The position numbers and the translations under genes were made by a program. From the NCBI GenBank assembly GCA_025355165.1, contig JANYAD010000172.1, positions 44,277-108,276 of the forward strand: 64,000 nt of DNA. Direction: 5' to 3'. Below, in pieces: positions 27,789-40,918 of the stretch. The notes below the pieces were generated by a model. It had not been told where the DNA came from and did no database searches. It saw only the letters and a list, made by a program, of their open reading frames with translations. How positions within the stretch are numbered: position 1 is the stretch's first letter; the number at the start of each line of letters is the position of its first letter. This DNA is from Gammaproteobacteria bacterium. GTDB taxonomy: Bacteria > Pseudomonadota > Gammaproteobacteria > Steroidobacterales > Steroidobacteraceae.

Positions 27789-29819
27789 TCACCATACCCG
27801 CACCCGTTGTACCGGCGAGAGATACAGCGCCTGGCCCGGGTTCACGGTAAACGCCGCGTACCAAGCGTCCAGGTTGCGCACCGTTTGCGCCCGATATTGA
27901 GCGGGCGCGTGCCCATCGGTGATGATCTGATTGCGCAGTGCGGCCGGGCGCGTCTTCTCGCGCCAGCTTTGCCCGAAGCTCAGGAAAAATAATTCATCGC
28001 TGCTGAAACCGGCCGCCGTCACGGGTTCTGCGCCTTGAATCGCCAGCCGGTACGCATCATAGGCGGCGTTCAAACCCGCGACATCGGCGATGTTTTCGCT
28101 TAACGTCTGCTCGCCGTTCACGGCTAAGTCGGGGAAGGGCTTGTAAGCGCTGTATTGCGCCGCCAGAAGCGCTCCCGATGCGCGGAAATGCGCGAAATCG
28201 TCCGGCTGCCACCAGTTGTGCAAGCGGCCGTGGGCATCGAAAAGCGCGCCCTGATCATCGAAGCTGTGGCTGATTTCATGGCCGATGGTGGCGCCGGTGG
28301 CGCCATAGTCCATCACCAACGGCTGATTCGGATCGAAGTAGGGCGGCTGCAAGATGGCCGCCGGAAAATTCAGTGCGTTCAGTGCCGGCAAGTTCACCGC
28401 ATTCACCAATTGCGCGTTCATCACCCATTCCGAGCGGTCCACCGGTTGCGAGAGCTTGCCGAGATTCTTGCGGTAGTCGAAAGCTTCCGCGCGCTCATGG
28501 TTCCCGAGCGCATCGCCACGCACGATCTTAAGTCCCGCATAGGAGCGCCAATGATCGGGGTAACCCACCCCCACCTTGAGCGCCGCCAGCTTTTCTTTGG
28601 CGATGGCCTTGGTTGCCGGCGCCATCCACTCCAGACGGTCTATGCGTGCGGCGTACGCGCTGAGCAAATTGCGCACCATGGCTTCGGCGCGTACCTTTTC
28701 AGCCGGGGAAAAATAGCGCTGCACATAGAGCTTGCCGACCGCATCGCCCAAGGCGTTGTCGGATGAATCCACGGCGCGCTTCCAGCGAGGTCGTTGTTCG
28801 GGCGTGTCATAGAGGACGCGCCCGTTGAAGGCAAAGCTCTCATCGTCGAATCGCTTCGCCAGGTAGGGCGAAGCGTCTTGCACGGCATGGAAGCGCAGAT
28901 AATCCTTCCAAGCGTCGAGCGATTCGCTGCGGGTGAGCTGCGACAGGCCGACCAGCGCGCTAGGCTGCCATACCACGAAATCCTTCTGGCGATCTAAGCC
29001 GGCTGCGGTGAAAAAACGCTGCCAGTCAAGGCCCGGAGCCTGCGCGTCGAATTGCGCTCGGGTCCAGTGATTGTTGCCGGCGCTCACCTGCTCGGAGGCG
29101 GCGCGCGTCCAGTGCACCTCTGCCATGCGCCGCTCGAGTTCCAGTACCTTGGCGGAGCGCGCTCTTGCCTCGGTGAAGCCCGCGAGCTCGAGCATGGCGG
29201 CGATATGGGCTTGGTATTGTTGACGGATGGCCGTCATGGCCGGCGAGGGGTTCACGTAATACTCGCGGTCCGGCATTTCCAATCCGCCTTGCAGTAGAAA
29301 GGGCGAGTAGCGGTTAGGATCATCGAGATCCTGCGCCACCCACAAGCCAAAAAGATTCGGCGTATGCAAATTGGTGGAATTGAGCACGTCCACATCGGTA
29401 CGCAGACCCGCGCCCAGCGCCGCGGCCAGCTGGTGGCGGTTGGCGATGGCCTCAATCCGCGCAAGCGCCGGCCGCAGGGGCGTCAGTCCCTTCTTTTCAA
29501 TCGTCGCCTCGTCCATGAAGCTTAAGTAGTAATCGCCGATCTGCTGCGTCTCGGATCCGGGGACCGAGCTTTGCGTGGTGGTTTGCACCAGCAATTCATT
29601 GACGCGGCGCGTGGTCAGCTCGGCCAACATGGCGCTGGTTCCATACGAGCTGCGATCCTCGGGGATGTCGGTGGCTTTAAGCCACCCGCCGTTGGCAAAT
29701 TGAAAAAAATCATCGCCCGGCGAGGTGGAGTGGTCCATGCCGGCAAGATCGGGTCCGGCCCATTGGGCAGCGGCCACCCCGGCCAGCAACGCAAGGCCGC
29801 TCAACGCAAATCGATTCAT
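27789..29819 (-). CDS. M13 family metallopeptidase (neprilysin/PepO-like)
   Basis: Signal peptide; ATIGHEISHSFDDQGALFDAHG zinc motif; SENIADVAGLNAAYDAY. Start 29819 overlaps the upstream stop (ATGA). Confidence 0.9.
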   Translation of the reverse strand: MNRFALSGLALLAGVAAAQWAGPDLAGMDHSTSPGDDFFQFANGGWLKATDIPEDRSSYGTSAMLAELTTRRVNELLVQTTTQSSVPGSETQQIGDYYLSFMDEATIEKKGLTPLRPALARIEAIANRHQLAAALGAGLRTDVDVLNSTNLHTPNLFGLWVAQDLDDPNRYSPFLLQGGLEMPDREYYVNPSPAMTAIRQQYQAHIAAMLELAGFTEARARSAKVLELERRMAEVHWTRAASEQVSAGNNHWTRAQFDAQAPGLDWQRFFTAAGLDRQKDFVVWQPSALVGLSQLTRSESLDAWKDYLRFHAVQDASPYLAKRFDDESFAFNGRVLYDTPEQRPRWKRAVDSSDNALGDAVGKLYVQRYFSPAEKVRAEAMVRNLLSAYAARIDRLEWMAPATKAIAKEKLAALKVGVGYPDHWRSYAGLKIVRGDALGNHERAEAFDYRKNLGKLSQPVDRSEWVMNAQLVNAVNLPALNALNFPAAILQPPYFDPNQPLVMDYGATGATIGHEISHSFDDQGALFDAHGRLHNWWQPDDFAHFRASGALLAAQYSAYKPFPDLAVNGEQTLSENIADVAGLNAAYDAYRLAIQGAEPVTAAGFSSDELFFLSFGQSWREKTRPAALRNQIITDGHAPAQYRAQTVRNLDAWYAAFTVNPGQALYLSPVQRVRVW

Positions 29820-30550
29820 AGCACCGTCCACTCAGGGTTGGGGAGTTCACTGAAAACTTCTTGAAGCGCGAAGCCCCACATCTCGTGGATCATCTGGAAA
29901 TATTTGTTGTCGTTGTCAATGCTGAGGTGGGCGGTCACCTTGAGCTCGTCGCGTTTGATGATGGCGAGGTCCAAGGGCGGCCCCACGGAAAGGTTGGAGC
30001 GCATGGTGGAATCCATCGACACCAGCGCGCACTTTGCGGCCTGGGCGAGACTTGAGCTGCGGGTGATGACCCTATCAATAATGGGCTTGCCGTATTTGGA
30101 TTCGCCGATCTGAAAATACGGCGTTTCGATCGAGGCTTCGATGAAGTTTCCGGCCGAATAGATGTGAAACAGTCGCGGCTCTTCGCCCTTGATCTGGCCG
30201 GCTAGTATGAAGGTGCCGTTGAAATCGTAGCCGTGCTCCTTCAAGTCCAGCGCATCGCGCTGATAAATCGAGCGCAGCCCATCGCCCACCACGCGCGCGG
30301 CATTGAACAGGTTGCTCGCGGACATGAGGGGGGTCGGCTCGCCCGGCTCCTCGGGCGTTTCCAGCAAATTCACCACCGCTTGGGTAATGCCTAAGTTACC
30401 GGCCGACATGAGCACCAGCGCGCGCTCGCCCGGGTTATGAAAGGTCTTCATCTTGCGAAATGTATTGATCTGATCGACGCCGGCATTGGTTCGCGAGTCG
30501 GACAACATCACGAGACCGGTGTCGACCAGTAGGCCGACGCAGTAAGTCAT
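29816..30550 (-). CDS. Anbu-type proteasome-related peptidase
   Basis: MTYCVGLLVDTGLVMLSDSRTNAGVDQINTFRKMKTF, with Thr2 at the N-terminus; Ntn-hydrolase proteasome-like fold and Anbu gene neighbourhood. Confidence 0.85.
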   Translation of the reverse strand: MTYCVGLLVDTGLVMLSDSRTNAGVDQINTFRKMKTFHNPGERALVLMSAGNLGITQAVVNLLETPEEPGEPTPLMSASNLFNAARVVGDGLRSIYQRDALDLKEHGYDFNGTFILAGQIKGEEPRLFHIYSAGNFIEASIETPYFQIGESKYGKPIIDRVITRSSSLAQAAKCALVSMDSTMRSNLSVGPPLDLAIIKRDELKVTAHLSIDNDNKYFQMIHEMWGFALQEVFSELPNPEWTVL

Positions 30551-30564
30551 ATGGGAATTCTACA

Positions 30565-31368
30565 TCACTGCTGCTGGGCCGATTCGGCCACCAGCACGTT
30601 GGCTTCCATCTTCTCGCCGCCGCCACCGTTGCGCATGCCGCGCACCGGCGCCGCATCCAGATAATCGCGGCCCACGGCAAGCCGGCAATACGTTCTGACC
30701 GCGGGGCGCTTGTGCGTCACATCCATGCTCTGCCAGCCGATTTCCGCGCCCAGCCACACATCCGCCCAGGCGTGGCTCGCCGCATCGCTGGCATCCCCGG
30801 TATAAATGTAGCCGCTGACATAGCGGGCGGGCATGCCGGAGGCGCGTGCGGCGGCGATGAACACGTGGGCATGATCCTGGCAGACCCCTTCGCCGCTCTT
30901 GAAGGCGTTCGCGGCGGTATCCTGCACATCGCTGGTGCCCGATTTGTAGCGCACCGCATCGCAGACCGCCTCGGCTAGAGCTTGGGCGCGGGCGCGCGGA
31001 TCGATGACGTTGCAGAGCACCGATTGAGCGAAGGTGCGAATGGCATCGTTGGGCGTCGTCAGCTGCGTCGGAGCGAGATACGCCAAGGGCGACAAAGGCC
31101 CGTCGTCATGGCGCGATTCCTGGTCGGAGGTTTCAACCACGCCGTGCACCAGGATGCGGATTTCCCGGTGCGGCTCCTCGATGGTGAGCAGATGCGAAAT
31201 ATTGCCATAGGCATCGATTTGTTCGAGGCGCCGCCCGGGCGAGGCGATGTTCCACGAGAGCGAGCGCTGGCTCTGGTCGCGGCGCGGCGTCAGGTGCAGG
31301 CTTTGCACGCTGTATTTGACGGTGCGCTCGTAGCGATAGCGGGTCTCGTGCCTGATGTGCATCTGCAT
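30565..31368 (-). CDS. Transglutaminase-like cysteine protease family protein
   Basis: N-terminal RHETRYRYERTVKYSVQSLHLTPR; catalytic EGVCQDHAHVFIAAARASGMPARYVSGYI, ASHAWADVWLG, MDVTH. Confidence 0.9.
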   Translation of the reverse strand: MQMHIRHETRYRYERTVKYSVQSLHLTPRRDQSQRSLSWNIASPGRRLEQIDAYGNISHLLTIEEPHREIRILVHGVVETSDQESRHDDGPLSPLAYLAPTQLTTPNDAIRTFAQSVLCNVIDPRARAQALAEAVCDAVRYKSGTSDVQDTAANAFKSGEGVCQDHAHVFIAAARASGMPARYVSGYIYTGDASDAASHAWADVWLGAEIGWQSMDVTHKRPAVRTYCRLAVGRDYLDAAPVRGMRNGGGGEKMEANVLVAESAQQQ

Positions 31369-31370
31369 AT

Positions 31371-32321
31371 TTACGCCTCCGCCGGGGGAACCAAGAAATC
31401 CGATGCGATGCGATGTCCCAGGTCATCGAGTTTCGCCAAGAATTGCTCCAAGAACTGCGGCAACCCGCCTGCGTTGAGTTCCTCCATGCGCGCGAAATGC
31501 AGCATGGCATGCATTTCACCGGCGCGCCGCTCGGTTTCCGCCGATTGCTCATTGGCCACCGCTTTTAGGTTGATATACACCTCTTTGCAGCAGCGCAGCA
31601 GGGAGCGGGGCATGTCGTCGCGCAAGATCAACAGCTGTGCCACGCGGGACGGGGTGATGACATCCCGATACACGCGTCTATACACCTCGAAAGCCGACAG
31701 GGCGCGCAGCAGCACGCTCCATTGGAAAGGATCCGGCACCACCCCGGCATCGGCGCCGGGCACCAAGTCGCCCTGGTGGGCGGTCAGAATGCGGGCGGTG
31801 CTGTCGGCACGCTCGAGAAATGTGCCGATGCGCGTGAAGTGAAACGCTTCATCGCGCATCATGGTGCCGATGGTCACGCCGCGCGTCAGGTGCGAGCGCT
31901 CCTTGACCCACTCGACGAACTGACCAATGTCGATTTGCGCGGCGGAGCGGCGCACGATTTGCGAGCGCGCATCCAGCCAGGTGGAGTTCAAGGTCTCCCA
32001 CAGTTCCGAGGTCAAGGAGCCGCGCACGGCGCGGGCGTTCTCGCGCGCGCAGCGCAGGCAGCTGTAGATGCTGCCGGTGAAGTCTCGATCCAAGGTGATG
32101 AATTCGAATACGGCGCGCGGTTCGATGCTCGAATGCTTCTGCTTGTATGCCTCATCCATGTGCAGGGCTTTCATGGTCTCACCGAGCGAGTCGGCGAGCG
32201 TTTGGGGGGTGTGCGGCAGCAAGGACATCCGATAGTGCGCATCGACCAGCCGTGCGACGCTTTCGGCCCGCTCGATGTAGCGCGACATCCAATACATATG
32301 ATCGGCGGTGCGGCTCAACAT
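31371..32321 (-). CDS. Alpha-E domain protein
   Basis: MLSRTADHMYWMSRYIERAESVARLVDAHYRM is the hallmark alpha-E N-terminus; starts at 32321, immediately after the ATP-grasp gene. Confidence 0.9.
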   Translation of the reverse strand: MLSRTADHMYWMSRYIERAESVARLVDAHYRMSLLPHTPQTLADSLGETMKALHMDEAYKQKHSSIEPRAVFEFITLDRDFTGSIYSCLRCARENARAVRGSLTSELWETLNSTWLDARSQIVRRSAAQIDIGQFVEWVKERSHLTRGVTIGTMMRDEAFHFTRIGTFLERADSTARILTAHQGDLVPGADAGVVPDPFQWSVLLRALSAFEVYRRVYRDVITPSRVAQLLILRDDMPRSLLRCCKEVYINLKAVANEQSAETERRAGEMHAMLHFARMEELNAGGLPQFLEQFLAKLDDLGHRIASDFLVPPAEA

Positions 32322-32322
32322 T

Positions 32323-33738
32323 TTAACTTTCCAGGACCCAGGTGTCCTTGGTGCCGCCGCCTTGTGAAGAATTGACCACCAGGGACCCCTCGCGCAACGC
32401 CACGCGGGTGAGTCCGCCGGGGACGATGGTGACTTCGCGGCCCGACAGGACGAAGGGACGCAGGTCGATGTGCCGCGGCGCCAAGCCCGCTTCGACGAAG
32501 GTGGGGCAGGTGGACAGGGCGAGGGTGGGCTGCGCGATGTAGCGCTCGGGCGTGGCGATGATCTGCCGGCGGAAATTCTCGATTTCATCCAGGGTGGAGG
32601 CAGGTCCGATGAGCATGCCGTAGCCGCCGGCGCCGTGCACTTCCTTGACCACCAATTCAGGTAAATGCGCGAGCACGTACTCCCGATCCACGGGATTGCG
32701 CAGCACCCAGGTATGTACATTGCCGATGATGGGTGCCTGGCCCAAATAGAACCGGATCATCTCGGGGACGTAGGGATAAATCGACTTGTCGTCGGCCACC
32801 CCGGTGCCGATGGCGTTGGCAATGGTGATGTGCCCGGCGCGATACGCCGTCATCAGCCCCGGGACCCCGAGCATGGAATCGGGCCTGAATACCAACGGAT
32901 CCATGAAATCATCATCGATGCGCCGATACATGACGTCCACCCGCTGTGGGCCCTGGGTGGTGCGCATGAACACCGCCTCGTCGCGCACGAACAGATCCTG
33001 GCCCTCCACCAGTTCGATGCCCATTTGCTGCGCCAGAAAGGCATGCTCGAAATAGGCGCTGTTGTGAGCGCCCGCGGTCAGCAGCACCACGGTGGGGTCG
33101 GCGACGCCGATGGGCGCGACGCTGCGCAGGTTATCGAGCAGCACGTCCGGATAATGATCGACTGGCGCCACGCGGTTCGCGGAAAAGAGCTCCGGAAACA
33201 GCCGCATCATCATCTTGCGGTTCTCCAGCATGTAGGACACGCCGGAGGGCACACGCAGATTGTCTTCCAGCACTTTGAACTCGCCCGTGTCATCGCGCAC
33301 GATGTCGATACCGGCGATATGCGCATAGATGCCTCCGGGGACATCCACCCCCTGCATCTCCGGACGGTATTGCGAGTTACACAGCACTTGCTCCGCTGGG
33401 ATGACGCCGGCCTTCAAAATCTGCTGGTCATGGTAAATATCGCTAATGAAGGCGTTTAGCGCCCGGACCCGCTGCTTGAGGCCCGCTTCGAGCCGGATCC
33501 ACTCCTCGTGCGGCAACACCCGCGGCACGATGTCGAATGGAATCAGGCGTTCCGCGCCTTCGTCCTGGCCGTAAACCGCGAAGGTGATGCCGACGCGGTG
33601 GAACAGGGCATCGGCTTCGGCGCGCTTTTGCGCCAGGCGATCGCCGACCTGACCTTCCAGCCAGCGCGAATAGCCGAGGTAGTGCGCCCGGCCGGCATTG
33701 CCCTTCAAATACATCTCGTCGTAAGGCGTTTTGAGCAA
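32323..33738 (-). CDS. Circularly permuted ATP-grasp type 2 protein
   Basis: PYDEMYL, ERLIPFDIVPRVLPHEEW, GIDIVRDDTGEFKVLEDNLRVPSGVSYMLENR, VVKEVHGAGGYGMLIGP, LRPFVLSG. Confidence 0.92.
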   Translation of the reverse strand: MLKTPYDEMYLKGNAGRAHYLGYSRWLEGQVGDRLAQKRAEADALFHRVGITFAVYGQDEGAERLIPFDIVPRVLPHEEWIRLEAGLKQRVRALNAFISDIYHDQQILKAGVIPAEQVLCNSQYRPEMQGVDVPGGIYAHIAGIDIVRDDTGEFKVLEDNLRVPSGVSYMLENRKMMMRLFPELFSANRVAPVDHYPDVLLDNLRSVAPIGVADPTVVLLTAGAHNSAYFEHAFLAQQMGIELVEGQDLFVRDEAVFMRTTQGPQRVDVMYRRIDDDFMDPLVFRPDSMLGVPGLMTAYRAGHITIANAIGTGVADDKSIYPYVPEMIRFYLGQAPIIGNVHTWVLRNPVDREYVLAHLPELVVKEVHGAGGYGMLIGPASTLDEIENFRRQIIATPERYIAQPTLALSTCPTFVEAGLAPRHIDLRPFVLSGREVTIVPGGLTRVALREGSLVVNSSQGGGTKDTWVLES

Positions 33739-33824: not shown

Positions 33825-34970
33825 TTAAAGTTTCGAGGTCGCGTGCGACCCCAAGTGCTGGGCCAGTGCGACAGCCACGGCCACGCGAGGGTCGCCATCG
33901 AACCGCACCGCGAAGTCGGATAACAAGGTCCGTGCCACCCGTGGCATACCGCCGCCGCGCGCGGCCAACTGCGCTATGGTCAAGGTATCGGCGGCCGATT
34001 TGGGGCGAAAAGCCGGGTCCGCACTTAAGCGCCGGCTCACCACGTCGAGCGCTTCGCCGGTGCGCTTGAGGCCCAAAAGCCGTGCCACGCGCTCTTCGGT
34101 GAGGCGGGTGATATAACGCGGGTCGTCCCAGTTCGCGGTTCGCTCGCACAGCCAGGCGTAGTCCTCAGGCTGATCGTCCCTGGATTTGAGCCAGTCGGAC
34201 ATGAGCTGCCAGCTACGGATATGGTTGTTCGAGCGCATCGAACCGTATGCTTCCAAAACCATCGCCTCGTGTTCCCGCCGCTGCTCATTGGACATTCGGT
34301 CGGCGGTACGTTCTGGGGAGGCCCAGGTTACGACGTCCAGCGCGTCGCGCCGCTCATAGATGGCGCCTCCTAAGAAGCTGAACACCGACAGCACGGCGAA
34401 CATCCATAAGGCCAAATCGATGGGCAGCCACAGGCCGAGAATCGACAAAAGGTCGAGCGCCACCCCGTAGCCAACGATCACAAGGAGCACTGCCAAGTAC
34501 AAAAGACCTAGTCCCCGCACCAGATGGAACCACGCAATGGGATTCATCGCCTTCAAAATGTGGCTGTCCAAGCCCAACACTGCTACCGAGGCCGGCAGGA
34601 AGAACACGCAGGTCAGGGCGAGCGCTAAAGCGGCGGGAAAGCCCAGATATGCCCACGTGAGTTTCACTGTGAAGAAAATCAGGCCTAGAATTACCACTTG
34701 CGCCAGGGGACGCATCTCGCTGAGAGGATTGACCATCTGGATGTCGAGCGTAGGAGGCTCATCGAAGCCGCGCACGGTGTGGTCAAATAGGATGTAGGCG
34801 TATTTAAAGAACCAGGAGAGCACGACCGCCGCCAGTGGGATTCCGAGAAGGCCAGCCTTGGATGCGATGAAGAGCAGGAAGGCGAAAACGATGACCACAC
34901 CCGCCGCTCCGCCGCGCGCGGGACGGGCAAGGTGGTGGATTAATTTTGAATGGGTGGTATGAGTGCGCAC
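33825..34970 (-). CDS. Multi-pass membrane protein with cytosolic helical-repeat-like tail (DUF4013-like)
   Basis: Five or so hydrophobic segments in the first 220 aa followed by a soluble domain; uninterrupted 381 aa ORF. Confidence 0.6.
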   Translation of the reverse strand: MRTHTTHSKLIHHLARPARGGAAGVVIVFAFLLFIASKAGLLGIPLAAVVLSWFFKYAYILFDHTVRGFDEPPTLDIQMVNPLSEMRPLAQVVILGLIFFTVKLTWAYLGFPAALALALTCVFFLPASVAVLGLDSHILKAMNPIAWFHLVRGLGLLYLAVLLVIVGYGVALDLLSILGLWLPIDLALWMFAVLSVFSFLGGAIYERRDALDVVTWASPERTADRMSNEQRREHEAMVLEAYGSMRSNNHIRSWQLMSDWLKSRDDQPEDYAWLCERTANWDDPRYITRLTEERVARLLGLKRTGEALDVVSRRLSADPAFRPKSAADTLTIAQLAARGGGMPRVARTLLSDFAVRFDGDPRVAVAVALAQHLGSHATSKL

Positions 34971-35243: not shown

Positions 35244-36893
35244 CTAACTGCGGGAACCCGAACGGTAAGTGGAAATATCATTTTGGGTTATTGCGGAAAT
35301 CGAGATAGCTTTGGATGGAACGCGATCGGTAGGCGAAGGGCGTACCCCGTGAACATACGGTTTAACTAGGCGTTTAGACACGAAATGGTACAAAGGGATG
35401 ATAGGATAATCATTGAGCATCAAACGCTCTGCTGATTCCAGAATACTTCGGCGAATTGAGGCATCAGCCGTTACGCTTGCCTGGTCAATCAGCTTGTCGA
35501 AGTCCGAATTCGAGTATCTTTCGTCATTGTTATTTGATCGGCTACTCAGTATTTCTAGAAAATTGTTCGCGTCGTTGAAGTCTGCAACCCATGCAAGTCT
35601 CGCCACATCCCACCGAGCCCTATCATGCCGAGAAATCAGAAACGATCTATACTCTTCCTCGACTAATTCACAATCGATACCGAGTTCTTCCTTCCACATT
35701 GCTGCAATCATAATAGCCGTGCGCTTGATCACGGCGTTCGAATTGAAAAGAACTCGCAAGTGGAGTGGGGTTTTGTTGGAGAAGCCCGCAGCCGTGTACA
35801 GTTGCCGCGCCTGCTGAAGACGTTCTTGATCAGGCAAATTTTTCCAAGCGTAGGATTGTTGCTGGTAGTTCCAAAGACCTGGAGGTATGAAACCGTATGC
35901 TGGGGGTTGTCCGAACCCGAAGCTGTCAACTAAACGATGGCGGTCAATGGCCATCGACAATGCCTGGCGCAATTTGACTTGACTCCCCAGTGGTTGCGAA
36001 GCCAGGTTCAGGCCATAGTAAGCCGTGGCGAGGAAAGGAGCGATCATCAGTTCTTTGGCCCTGGCCTCTCCAAGCGACGGGATCGCGGAGGCCGGAACTA
36101 CATCTGTCATATCGAGCTCACCCGCTCGATACTGCGCGTATTGCGTGTTTTCATCGCTTGCAAATTGAAACTCTACTCTGGGAATATGAACATTTGGTCG
36201 GTCCCAGTATTTGGGGTTTTGCGTAAGCTCGATCGAGCTCCCGGTCTGCCACCGCGTCAATACGTAAGCTCCGTTTGAAACCCATGCGGCTGGATCATGA
36301 GTTCGCGCTGTCGATTCTGAATATATGGGGAATGCAACGGGGTGACTCAGGACCTCAGGCAGATAAGGAGTTGGTAAATCGAGGTCGACGACTAACGTAT
36401 CGTCCGAGGGTGCGGACACACCAAGCGTTAGCGGCGAAGCTCGACCGGCCAGTATTTCCGGTACTCCGTGAATCGCTCTTAGATCGTCCGCAACGGGCGA
36501 TCCTTGCTTTGGATCGACTACGCGCCGCCACGCGGCAACGAAATCTTGAGCTCGAACGGGGTACCCGTTTGACCATCGAGCGGTAGTTCGCAAGTGAAAC
36601 GTATACCGAAGCCCGCCCGGTTCAATGGTCCACGATGAGGCCACGGCCGGCACGACCGTTCCTTCGCTTGTTTCCGCAGTCAGGCCTTCGTATACATCTT
36701 GCAAGACCTGTGCCGAAAAATTATCGCCAGAACTAGCCGGATCTAAAGTCGAGGGTTCGCCGCTCAAGCCACGATGCAACACCGGACTTCTCTCTGAAGC
36801 TGCCTGATGGCGGCCACAACCGCAGACGGCCACGGAAATTGCAAACACCATTCCTAGATTCAAGGCCCGAATCATCAAAGATAGCAATTTCAT
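35244..36893 (-). CDS. Peptide ABC transporter substrate-binding lipoprotein (SBP family 5, OppA-like)
   Basis: Lipobox-like AVCGCG; LHRGLSGEPSTLDPASSGDNFSAQVLQDVYEGL; YTFHLRTTARWSNGYPVRAQDFVAAWRRVVDP. Confidence 0.9.
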   Translation of the reverse strand: MKLLSLMIRALNLGMVFAISVAVCGCGRHQAASERSPVLHRGLSGEPSTLDPASSGDNFSAQVLQDVYEGLTAETSEGTVVPAVASSWTIEPGGLRYTFHLRTTARWSNGYPVRAQDFVAAWRRVVDPKQGSPVADDLRAIHGVPEILAGRASPLTLGVSAPSDDTLVVDLDLPTPYLPEVLSHPVAFPIYSESTARTHDPAAWVSNGAYVLTRWQTGSSIELTQNPKYWDRPNVHIPRVEFQFASDENTQYAQYRAGELDMTDVVPASAIPSLGEARAKELMIAPFLATAYYGLNLASQPLGSQVKLRQALSMAIDRHRLVDSFGFGQPPAYGFIPPGLWNYQQQSYAWKNLPDQERLQQARQLYTAAGFSNKTPLHLRVLFNSNAVIKRTAIMIAAMWKEELGIDCELVEEEYRSFLISRHDRARWDVARLAWVADFNDANNFLEILSSRSNNNDERYSNSDFDKLIDQASVTADASIRRSILESAERLMLNDYPIIPLYHFVSKRLVKPYVHGVRPSPTDRVPSKAISISAITQNDISTYRSGSRS

Positions 36894-38097: not shown

Positions 38098-38541
38098 ATG
38101 AAACACACGATAACATCGCACGCTCGAACCGGAGCCGTCTTTGCGTTCGCCACGGTATGCGTGGCTTTTGCTACGCCGAGCGTCGCGTTACAACAGGGTA
38201 GCAGTCGCTTTATTACCCCTTTCCTTCAGCAAGGCAGCAGTGGAATCGTGACCCCGAACCTTCAGCAAGGCAGCAGCATCAAGTTGCAGCAAGGCAGCAG
38301 CGGCTTGGTTACCCCCTCGCTTCAGCAAGGCAGCAGCCTAATGCAGACACTCTTGCAGCAAGGCTCCAGCTTGATGCATGTTTTTCTGCAACAAGGATCA
38401 AGCAAGTTCTCTGCGCCCGCTTTGCAGCAGGGGTCAAGCAGAGCCAATGGAGTAGCGGGGTCTTCTGCATCCACGAAGCAAAAAGATGTATGCGAGATGC
38501 ACCAGAATGGTGGGATGTTCGGCCTACAAGAAACGTGTTAA
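38098..38541 (+). CDS. Exported tandem-repeat protein, eight LQQGSS units, Cys-containing C-terminus
   Basis: ATG after AAGGAAGGG; signal peptide ending TPSVA; repeats begin at 38188, 38224, 38260, 38284, 38320, 38353, 38386, 38422; C-terminus KDVCEMHQNGGMFGLQETC. Confidence 0.8.
   Translation: MKHTITSHARTGAVFAFATVCVAFATPSVALQQGSSRFITPFLQQGSSGIVTPNLQQGSSIKLQQGSSGLVTPSLQQGSSLMQTLLQQGSSLMHVFLQQGSSKFSAPALQQGSSRANGVAGSSASTKQKDVCEMHQNGGMFGLQETC
38188..38439 (+). repeat. In-frame tandem repeat array encoding LQQGSS-N(2-6)
   Basis: Eight 18-nt units with spacings 36, 36, 24, 36, 33, 33, 36 nt. Units differ at synonymous positions (caacagggtagcagt, cagcaaggcagcagc, caacaaggatcaagc, cagcaggggtcaagc). 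Confidence 0.95.
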
Positions 38542-38574: not shown

Positions 38575-38604
38575 GGCCTGCGATTTGCAGGCCCTTTTCT
38601 TTTT
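38575..38604 (+). terminator. Rho-independent terminator downstream of repeat gene
   Basis: GGCCTGC-GATTT-GCAGGCC followed by CTTTTCTTTTT. Confidence 0.85.
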
Positions 38605-38694: not shown

Positions 38695-39453
38695 TCATTT
38701 TTTCTTTGTATCTTGTGTTTTGCGGACCTTCGCCAGCCGGGTCCATGCGAAAATGTGAACGCTCATTTCACCAGATCCCTTATTTCGCGTTCGTCTTCGG
38801 CGAAGCGCCTCTAGATCGCCATTTACTGCGTCGATATATGCGGATCCTCGTTTTTTGATGTCTCGAAGGACCGGGGCAATAGTTGTCAGGTTGACTTCAG
38901 GAACATGACAGTTTCTTTCGAGAAGAAGTACTGCTTCGGTGTGGTGTCGAGACGAATTCCTACTCAGCGTATCCAGGTATCTTTCCATTACAAGCGCAGC
39001 GCGCGGCACCGCGAAATCAGGTAAGACGAATTCACGTCTCAGTGGTATAAAATCGCCGCGGTCATTCATGCCTATGCTCGGAGAGCGACGCATGAGCTGT
39101 ATCGCGACCGCCCGGGAAACTGAAACTCTAGACGTACGTACTAGGCTAAGCACTGATCTAGCGCTAGGCCCAGCAGTGAGCGGAATTGGCTGACAGTCCC
39201 TGTCTAAAAATTTTGGGGACGAAAACCAAGTAGACATCACCATGCCCATTTCTTCGTAAGTGCGCGCAAGGTTTCGATACTTTTGAATGTTGTATCGGGG
39301 TGCTCTGGCATCATAGTTTTGACGGATGCAATCAAAGATTTGTTGCTTCGAAATATTATTGGTTCGCAGAAATGAAATTGTGGCAGCGATGAGCGCACTG
39401 GCTCCTTGCCTTTTGACTGCATCAGTGTACGAAGACGGTGAGCTTCCTCTCAT
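38695..39453 (-). CDS. DUF6502-like protein (divergent variant)
   Basis: ORF trimmed to ATG 39453 to avoid a long overlap. GASALIAATISFLRTNNISKQQIFDCI; MVMSTWFSSPKFLDRDCQPIPL; RREFVLPDFAVPRAALVMERYLDTLSRN; MSVHIFAWT. Confidence 0.55.
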   Translation of the reverse strand: MRGSSPSSYTDAVKRQGASALIAATISFLRTNNISKQQIFDCIRQNYDARAPRYNIQKYRNLARTYEEMGMVMSTWFSSPKFLDRDCQPIPLTAGPSARSVLSLVRTSRVSVSRAVAIQLMRRSPSIGMNDRGDFIPLRREFVLPDFAVPRAALVMERYLDTLSRNSSRHHTEAVLLLERNCHVPEVNLTTIAPVLRDIKKRGSAYIDAVNGDLEALRRRRTRNKGSGEMSVHIFAWTRLAKVRKTQDTKKK

Positions 39454-39490
39454 AGCAGACTCTCCCGTGTCGAAAATCGACACTCTGTGG

Positions 39491-40417
39491 CTATTTTCCC
39501 ATTCTACCCTTGCTATTTCTTCTGAGATTTTTGCGATGCCCGTCGGCGGTGGCGACTGAAGCGTCCGGGTCGCTGGGCAATTCTTCCTCAAAATAATAAG
39601 CGGTTACACCGATGCGGCATTGCGTCGAAATGTTTGACGGCACGCGCGCAGGCTTGGAACGAGAGCGCGTTAGTAAGGAGCTGGTTCCATCGATAAACGC
39701 CGCTCCTTGTTCGGCGATGCCTCTCCGTACTAGAGGAACCGCGTTCGCATCGATATTGCTCATAACTGCCGTCGCCTCGAATAAGGCATTCGATGAGGTC
39801 CGAAGATTTCTTGTCAGTGTTGTGAGCAGATCGGCTGCCCGTTCCCCGACATTGGCTATTGCGCTTGCAGTCATACCCCGAAAAGTTGGAACGCGCACTT
39901 TAGCCCTTATACGTTGTCTCGGCAAAACTTCTATAGCACTGATTTGTGCTAGTTCGTCGAGCATCGCTCGAACAGGGATTCCACCGCTATACATACCCAC
40001 GAGGCGCTCAAAGCTTTTGCGCTTACCAAAAATGGGAAGGACAGCGGGATCTCCATTTGCTCCGAGAAATTGCACGTTGTCATACCACGCCGCAAGTACT
40101 TTCCTGGCTGGGTGCTGTCCAGCCAGACGGCTTGGGCAGAATTTTTCTGCTTTCAAGATTCGCGCTACTTCTCCCCTACCCAAGCCGGTCGTTATTGCGA
40201 CACGTGAATTGCTGTTACGTCCTGATTCCCTAGTAATGCGCGCAGATGCGATTCGCACGGCGCGCTCGCGGACCAATCGACTGAACTCGTGCACCGTAAT
40301 TCCTGCATCGAACGTTAGATCCATTAGGGGGTCAATCACGCGCTCCAGCGTTGTTATGGTTGCCGCTCTTAGGGGATCTCGCGACCGCGATTCTTTAGGG
40401 ATTTGCATTCCTGCCAA
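39491..40417 (-). CDS. DUF6502-like protein
   Basis: RVIDPLMDLTFDAGITVHEFSRLVRERAVRIA; NSRVAITTGLGRGEVARIL; VLAAWYDNVQFLGANGDPAVLPIFGKRKSFERLVGMYSGGIPVRAMLDELAQI; IGVTAYYFEE. Confidence 0.7.
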   Translation of the reverse strand: MAGMQIPKESRSRDPLRAATITTLERVIDPLMDLTFDAGITVHEFSRLVRERAVRIASARITRESGRNSNSRVAITTGLGRGEVARILKAEKFCPSRLAGQHPARKVLAAWYDNVQFLGANGDPAVLPIFGKRKSFERLVGMYSGGIPVRAMLDELAQISAIEVLPRQRIRAKVRVPTFRGMTASAIANVGERAADLLTTLTRNLRTSSNALFEATAVMSNIDANAVPLVRRGIAEQGAAFIDGTSSLLTRSRSKPARVPSNISTQCRIGVTAYYFEEELPSDPDASVATADGHRKNLRRNSKGRMGK

Positions 40418-40618: not shown

Positions 40619-40918
40619 ATGGTCCACTCCCTAATTTGCTGGCGCTGCGGCGCATCTCTTGCTGTTCTTAGTCTTCCTTTTAGGCGCTTGGATGTTTGCA
40701 AGGCCTGCAATGCTGAGTTGCACGTGTGCAAAATGTGCGTTGAGTACGCTACGTCCTATGCCAAGCACTGCAAGGAACCTACCGCTGAGGAGATTCGAAA
40801 AAAGGACGAAGCCAATTTTTGCGATCACTTCAAGCCTAAGACTGGGGCTTATATCGCCAAAAACGAAGCAGAAATCGCGAAGTCGAAGTCCGCCCTGGAC
40901 GATCTCTTTAGGCGGTGA
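40619..40918 (+). CDS. Small Cys-rich zinc-ribbon-like protein
   Basis: CWRCGASL...CKACNAELHVCKMCVEYATSYAKHCKEP...FCDHFKP, with three CxxC pairs. Confidence 0.65.
   Translation: MVHSLICWRCGASLAVLSLPFRRLDVCKACNAELHVCKMCVEYATSYAKHCKEPTAEEIRKKDEANFCDHFKPKTGAYIAKNEAEIAKSKSALDDLFRR

Follow-up and report, generated by a model that had tools for sequence, protein, structure and literature searches.

DUF6502 (PF20112) is a protein family that is catalogued without a described function, and the same holds for DUF5666 (PF18914). The open-access papers searched do not mention DUF6502, and DUF5666 appears in four of them, with one or two mentions in each. A literature search with the hexapeptide GIGGTG matched a paper on antimicrobial peptides. 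Peptide signaling of the RRNPP type (e.g., PlcR-PapR, ComR, and Rgg) is a Gram-positive system that uses Opp for import. Surface tandem-repeat proteins, including the serine-rich repeat proteins, are exported, are of low complexity, and vary in copy number and sequence among relatives. Proteins of the left-handed beta-helix type (PF00132) have a hexapeptide with Ile or Val at a fixed place. The locus described here resembles each of these in part. It lies in a 64,000-nucleotide stretch of DNA from a gammaproteobacterium of the Steroidobacteraceae (the window), and its features are listed in Table 1.

Table 1. Features of the LQQGSS locus, with positions numbered from the first nucleotide of the window.
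Feature	Position	Strand	Details
OppA-like peptide-binding lipoprotein, orphan (SBP_bac_5)	35244..36893	-	PF00496 1.3e-78; divergent from A
DUF6502 gene A, 303 aa	37150..38061	+	PF20112 E 8e-23; directly 5' of the array gene
LQQGSS motif-array protein gene	38098..38541	+	147 aa, ORF and translation; ATG start
Sec signal peptide (predicted), residues 1-30	38098..38187	+	by eye: basic n-region, hydrophobic core, cleavage between SVA and L
Eight-unit LQQGSS array, variable spacers	38188..38439	+	unit starts 38188, 38224, 38260, 38284, 38320, 38353, 38386, 38422
C-terminal tail	38440..38538	+	ends KDVCEMHQNGGMFGLQETC, two Cys; no match found
Terminator-like hairpin, T-rich tail	38575..38603	+	8 pairs, 3' of stop; scan position 38575-38593
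Divergent DUF6502-like paralogue C	38695..39591	-	start uncertain; listed ORF overlaps the end of B
DUF6502 paralogue B, 308 aa	39491..40417	-	PF20112 E 1.5e-26

The initial annotation of this DNA described an exported protein with eight LQQGSS units, and the open reading frame bears this out. A purine-rich stretch resembling a ribosome-binding site (aaggaaggg) lies just 5' of the start codon. The signal peptide, judged by eye on the translation, has its predicted cleavage site immediately before the first unit (between MKHTITSHARTGAVFAFATVCVAFATPSVA and LQQGSS), and the protein passes a hydropathy filter for export signals. The exact copies (n = 8) begin at residues 31, 43, 55, 63, 75, 86, 97, and 109, giving spacings of 12, 12, 8, 12, 11, 11, and 12. 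The annotated 12-residue period is the commonest spacing, but 8 and 11 also occur, and the longer unit LQQGSSxxVTPx does not describe most copies, since xx[VI]TPx follows only three. That spacer changes are multiples of three is true but trivial for an open frame. Synonymous variation, cited as a sign of selection on the peptide, is confirmed: the hexamers differ from their own consensus at 25 nucleotides, all 25 changes are synonymous (neutral simulation, P ~1e-17), and both AGC and TCC/TCA encode Ser5. A chance origin of the repeat is ruled out by these codons and by shuffled sequences, which contain no match to the degenerate 12-period pattern that occurs four times in the window. Modeled by AF2 as a single sequence, the protein has a pLDDT of 45 and no fold, and it is probably a largely unstructured chain; the model fits disorder without proving it, as single-sequence disorder prediction is weak evidence. 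No anchoring signal is seen. The hairpin and T-rich tail make the annotated terminator plausible, but the count is not significant: the scan gave 3 sites of this kind where shuffled sequence would give 2.2.

Searches with the array protein returned no match in Pfam (no family at E up to 1), NCBIfam, or PHROGs, in agreement with the annotated proposal of a new repeat family. The genome carries no second copy of the gene, and LQQGSS occurs nowhere else in it (six other pattern matches are present, none reading LQQGSS). No credible relative was found in 217 genomes of the family, in GTDB contigs, or in viral contigs. Weak matches within the family (L003-L006, 17-23 bits) were set aside as homologs; two lie in frames with stops, and that of L003 falls in a GC-rich, antisense-like region. 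The 12-period pattern is likewise absent from the 395 other genomes of the order, leaving the window alone among 396. In the initial annotation, absence of the repeat from every relative was to count against the proposal. Literal LQQGSS indeed has no homolog in these searches, but positional homologs with diverged motifs are abundant.

The 36-nt, same-strand gap between gene A and the start codon of the array gene was annotated correctly, and the upstream gene is a true DUF6502 gene (81 bits against PF20112, where the curated cut-off is 27). Its paralogue B is also a clear member, whereas the array protein is not. Paralogue C has no match in Pfam, and its relatives found by phmmer adjoin DUF6502 genes in four loci (L043, L044, L051, and L053). 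At least two DUF6502-like genes are present in 59 of 77 loci of the order; the window has A, B, and C. The AF2 model of the product of gene A (pLDDT 80, pTM 0.51, 33 sequences) contains an N-terminal helical part, a helix-turn-helix (HTH)-like pair at residues 59-78, a winged-helix-like unit at residues 144-180, and long C-terminal helices. Searches of the PDB with DUF6502 gave only designed or short matches by sequence and nothing below E 0.001 by fold (best E 0.34). Winged-helix fragments appear in the fold search at a probability of 0.63, and many of the weak matches are DNA-binding regulators or winged-helix domains. Judged from this model, DUF6502 is likely a DNA-binding regulator.

DUF6502 loci were gathered from relatives, and the named records among these belong to the Steroidobacteraceae, the Woeseiaceae, and other Gammaproteobacteria. 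Within the order, the gene that comes after A-type DUF6502, on the same strand and at an offset of about -60 to +250 nt, encodes an exported tandem-repeat protein in one locus after another. Of 77 loci, 66 have a repeat ORF that begins where A ends; the control, ORFs taken from 5' of A, gave 5 of 884. Six of the 11 loci without such an ORF lie on contigs that break off no more than 660 nt from A, and three (L041, L110, and L135) were missed only through start choice, which leaves L095 and L114. The distance from A to a contig end is under 1.4 kb on the 3' side at 28 loci of 60 and on the 5' side at 3, a bias that is expected if repeats break assemblies. Almost all genomes of the order that bear DUF6502 have the exported repeat protein, and what defines the family is its position after DUF6502 together with a drifting motif, not literal LQQGSS. 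Most repeat proteins of the order, like other relatives at the same position, combine a DUF5666 domain with the motif. Others do not, and the domain has changed at least 13 times on the tree. The window protein has neither DUF5666 nor a lipobox, and its motif is multiplied and diverged.

Across lineages, the hexapeptide has the consensus [GSA]-I-x-G-[ST]-[GD], for which the search itself fixed G4 and restricted position 5 to certain residues, leaving positions 1, 2, 3, and 6 free. Lineage motifs include SIQGTG, GISGSG, GIIGSG, AIVGTG, SIIGSS, GVGGTG, ASVGTG, GSMGTG, AIDGTD, SINGSD, GISGGD, and GITGSG. A single genus (g1) contains LQQGSS, GQTGSG, GIVGTD, SIIGSS, and SIIGTS. A tree built from 120 A-type DUF6502 proteins places the window in a clade (SH-aLRT support 100%) whose other arrays read GQTGSG (13 copies), GQTGSD (6), GQHGTD (7), and GIVGTD (22). 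Given these Q variants on the tree, Q at position 2 characterizes the clade to which the window belongs, with LQQGSS as the member that has diverged furthest. Modal unit lengths over the family's arrays range from 6 to 19, with 8 the most frequent. Most relatives share with the left-handed beta-helix a hexapeptide that has Ile or Val at a fixed place, and the repeat protein of L043 scores just below the PF00132 cut-off. The window protein, in contrast, has no match to PF00132 in Pfam, and its spacings of 8-12 form no regular 6-residue coil. The variable unit length of the family and the lack of an AF2 fold for the window protein favor an array of linear motifs over a fixed solenoid.

The initial annotation missed a second form of the protein that is found across the Gammaproteobacteria. 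Outside the order, 26 of 28 A-type loci continue into a lipoprotein that carries the motif near its mature N-terminus and usually a DUF5666 domain; the ORF 3' of A was chosen in these loci by length and not by motif. The lipoprotein gene mostly overlaps A by 4 nt. A single motif copy (two in L210) follows the lipobox cysteine and a Gly-rich linker, as in CGGGGSAGIGGTGI, AGISGTGI, GIDGTGI, GIEGTGI, and GETGTG. A single one of 920 control ORFs has the motif within its first 80 residues, and none of the 55 with a lipobox-like site does. In 20 longer neighborhoods, DUF6502 and the exported motif protein alone are common class-wide, with no third gene. One lipoprotein (L218; G712:C226) follows DUF6502 and bears the motif without DUF5666 (CGDGGIIGTGTG...), which suggests that the motif, not the domain, is the constant part. 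Another (L210; G696:C38) has DUF5666 and two tandem copies (AGIGGTGSAGIGGTGIS) and is a possible intermediate between the single motif and the array. From its wider distribution we infer that the single-motif lipoprotein (one G-I-x-G-[ST]-G) is the ancestral form, the tree itself being unrooted.

The motif is under purifying selection and the spacers are not. In 64 arrays, identity stands at 98% among hexamers and at 66% for the two spacer residues that follow; the motif value is inflated because hexamers were picked by similarity. Synonymous and nonsynonymous codon differences number 16638:830 in the motif and 2905:5486 in the spacer, counted over pairs that are not independent. The size of the contrast between motif and spacer, and its agreement with the window alone, indicate that the hexapeptide is the selected unit and that spacing is free. 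Such a pattern points to a linear recognition element more than to a rigid solenoid.

The array protein is very probably one half, the exported one, of a two-gene module with DUF6502. How the module would work is more tentative, and a mechanism in which the motif binds a putative extracytoplasmic partner while the HTH-like DUF6502 controls the gene falls somewhat short of an even chance. The reading preferred overall, at about even chances, is that the array protein is an exported tag protein of the module in which amplification of a linear motif has produced a hypervariable, multivalent array. An ancestral single motif on a DUF5666 lipoprotein would have given rise in the window's order to tandem arrays of genus-specific sequence, sometimes without the DUF5666 domain, and the window protein would be the array-only, Q-variant end of this series. 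The protein would leave the cytoplasm as a largely unstructured chain displaying the hexapeptide many times. The hexapeptide may be a recognition element for a putative extracytoplasmic partner on the same cell, on a neighbor, or in the matrix; its repetition would provide avidity, and the lineage-specific drift of the motif could reflect motif and partner evolving together. Expression of the exported gene would probably be controlled by DUF6502, in whose model HTH-like and winged-helix-like parts are seen. The open-access literature appears to contain no description of the pair, its tag motif, or the arrays, which would make the pair new as a system, with neither component of known function. 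Two DUF families form a conserved pair across the Gammaproteobacteria and are linked by a six-residue motif that is in no library. The hypervariable arrays of one order amount to a natural mutational scan of which residues matter, and short synthetic peptides, together with deletions of single genes, offer a direct way to test the function.

Four other readings were weighed and rank, from most to least probable, as a structural or adhesive repeat, a precursor of peptide signals, an unrelated replacement, and a ribosomal modified peptide (RiPP). The protein could be surface material, with the Gly/Ser/Gln-rich repeat forming a stalk, fiber, or matrix and the motif being merely structural. This is unlikely, although export, low-complexity repeats of up to 41 copies in the order, hypervariability typical of surface repeats, and the frequent attachment of DUF5666 domains all fit it, and the novelty of the pair as a system would shrink if it were so. 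The hexamer is kept while the spacers drift in sequence and length, and a purely structural repeat leaves unexplained the single conserved copy in lipoproteins that have no repeat. The window protein matches no adhesin, fiber, or solenoid family in Pfam or NCBIfam, and it differs from surface tandem-repeat proteins in its short hexapeptide, its free spacers, its fixed DUF6502 partner, and the lack of a visible anchor.

A second alternative is that the array is a multicopy precursor that is cut to LQQGSS peptides, which would be taken up through Opp and OppA and sensed by DUF6502, the hexapeptide acting as a pherotype. As in RRNPP systems, a small exported precursor, an OppA, and a likely cytoplasmic DNA-binding protein stand side by side, and a constant repeated peptide with lineage-specific variants adjoins regulators that are HTH-like in the model. 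A divergent OppA gene adjoins A in 5 of 5 members of the window's DUF6502 clade, and, with these five included, an OppA-like gene lies beside A, divergent or on the same strand, in about a dozen of 108 loci. The OppA of the window is the only free-standing SBP_bac_5 gene in its genome, and an OppBCDF-like operon without its own OppA is found on another contig (L238 4704-8424; G000:C169). The placement of OppA and the OppA-less operon keep this reading alive for the window's clade. OppA was rejected as a general part of the system because most loci lack it and the class-wide pair does too. Unlike RRNPP systems, the locus is Gram-negative and multicopy, and its OppA is not conserved in the family. 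Moreover, no cleavage-site pattern is evident between units, the class-wide form has one motif on a lipoprotein, and DUF6502 lacks a TPR receptor domain of the RRNPP type: no TPR-HTH receptor was found, DUF6502 matching PF20112 only and its AF2 model having no evident TPR array. A signal precursor is a doubtful explanation, and slightly more doubtful is the proposal that the pair is a Gram-negative system of peptide communication or kin recognition in which a pherotype hexapeptide enters via OppA and is read by DUF6502 DNA-binding proteins. On a different contig of the genome (L239 2563-5163; G000:C143), a single 866-aa frame contains both SBP_bac_5 and ABC permease domains, a rare fusion or an effect of frame or assembly.

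It is quite improbable that a lineage-specific repeat protein, unrelated by descent to the GIxGTG family, came to follow DUF6502 by chance. No relative has a sequence that can be aligned with that of the window protein, and LQQGSS agrees with the family consensus at G4 and S5 only, plus the Q2 that it shares with sister loci. Its homology thus rests on position, export, architecture, and clade instead of alignable sequence. The protein occupies the same place and strand and is likewise exported, and a copy of its motif comes directly after the predicted cleavage site, as in L049, L050, and L051 and at the same place as in the lipoproteins. The Q variants of its nearest relatives (GQTGSG, GQTGSD, and GQHGTD), with G and S in register, bridge the family to LQQGSS. 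On these grounds we infer that the window protein belongs to the DUF6502-coupled family. Finally, the annotated option of a multicore modified peptide (RiPP), to which the leader-like N-terminus followed by repeated short cores lends some resemblance, is very improbable. The N-terminus resembles a Sec signal peptide, and the ten neighbors scanned include no lanthionine synthetase, YcaO, or radical-SAM maturase. No third gene (and hence no maturase) is conserved with the pair, DUF6502 being the sole gene shared class-wide, and the class-wide form consists of large single-motif lipoproteins.

Other genes of the window were also noted. A 99-aa Cys-rich small protein (CWRCG...CKAC...) is encoded at 40619-40918 (+) and has no match in Pfam or NCBIfam; a clear relative of it adjoins the B and C paralogues in L044. 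A 381-aa membrane-like protein (33828-34970, -), also without a match in Pfam or NCBIfam, is syntenic with the locus in L042 and L049. At 29819-33738 (-), a proteasome-like subunit of 243 aa that weakly matches the archaeal proteasome beta subunit adjoins genes for an Alpha-E protein and a circularly permuted ATP-grasp protein, and the group resembles a cluster of the Anbu type. It is followed by an M13 peptidase (27795-29831).
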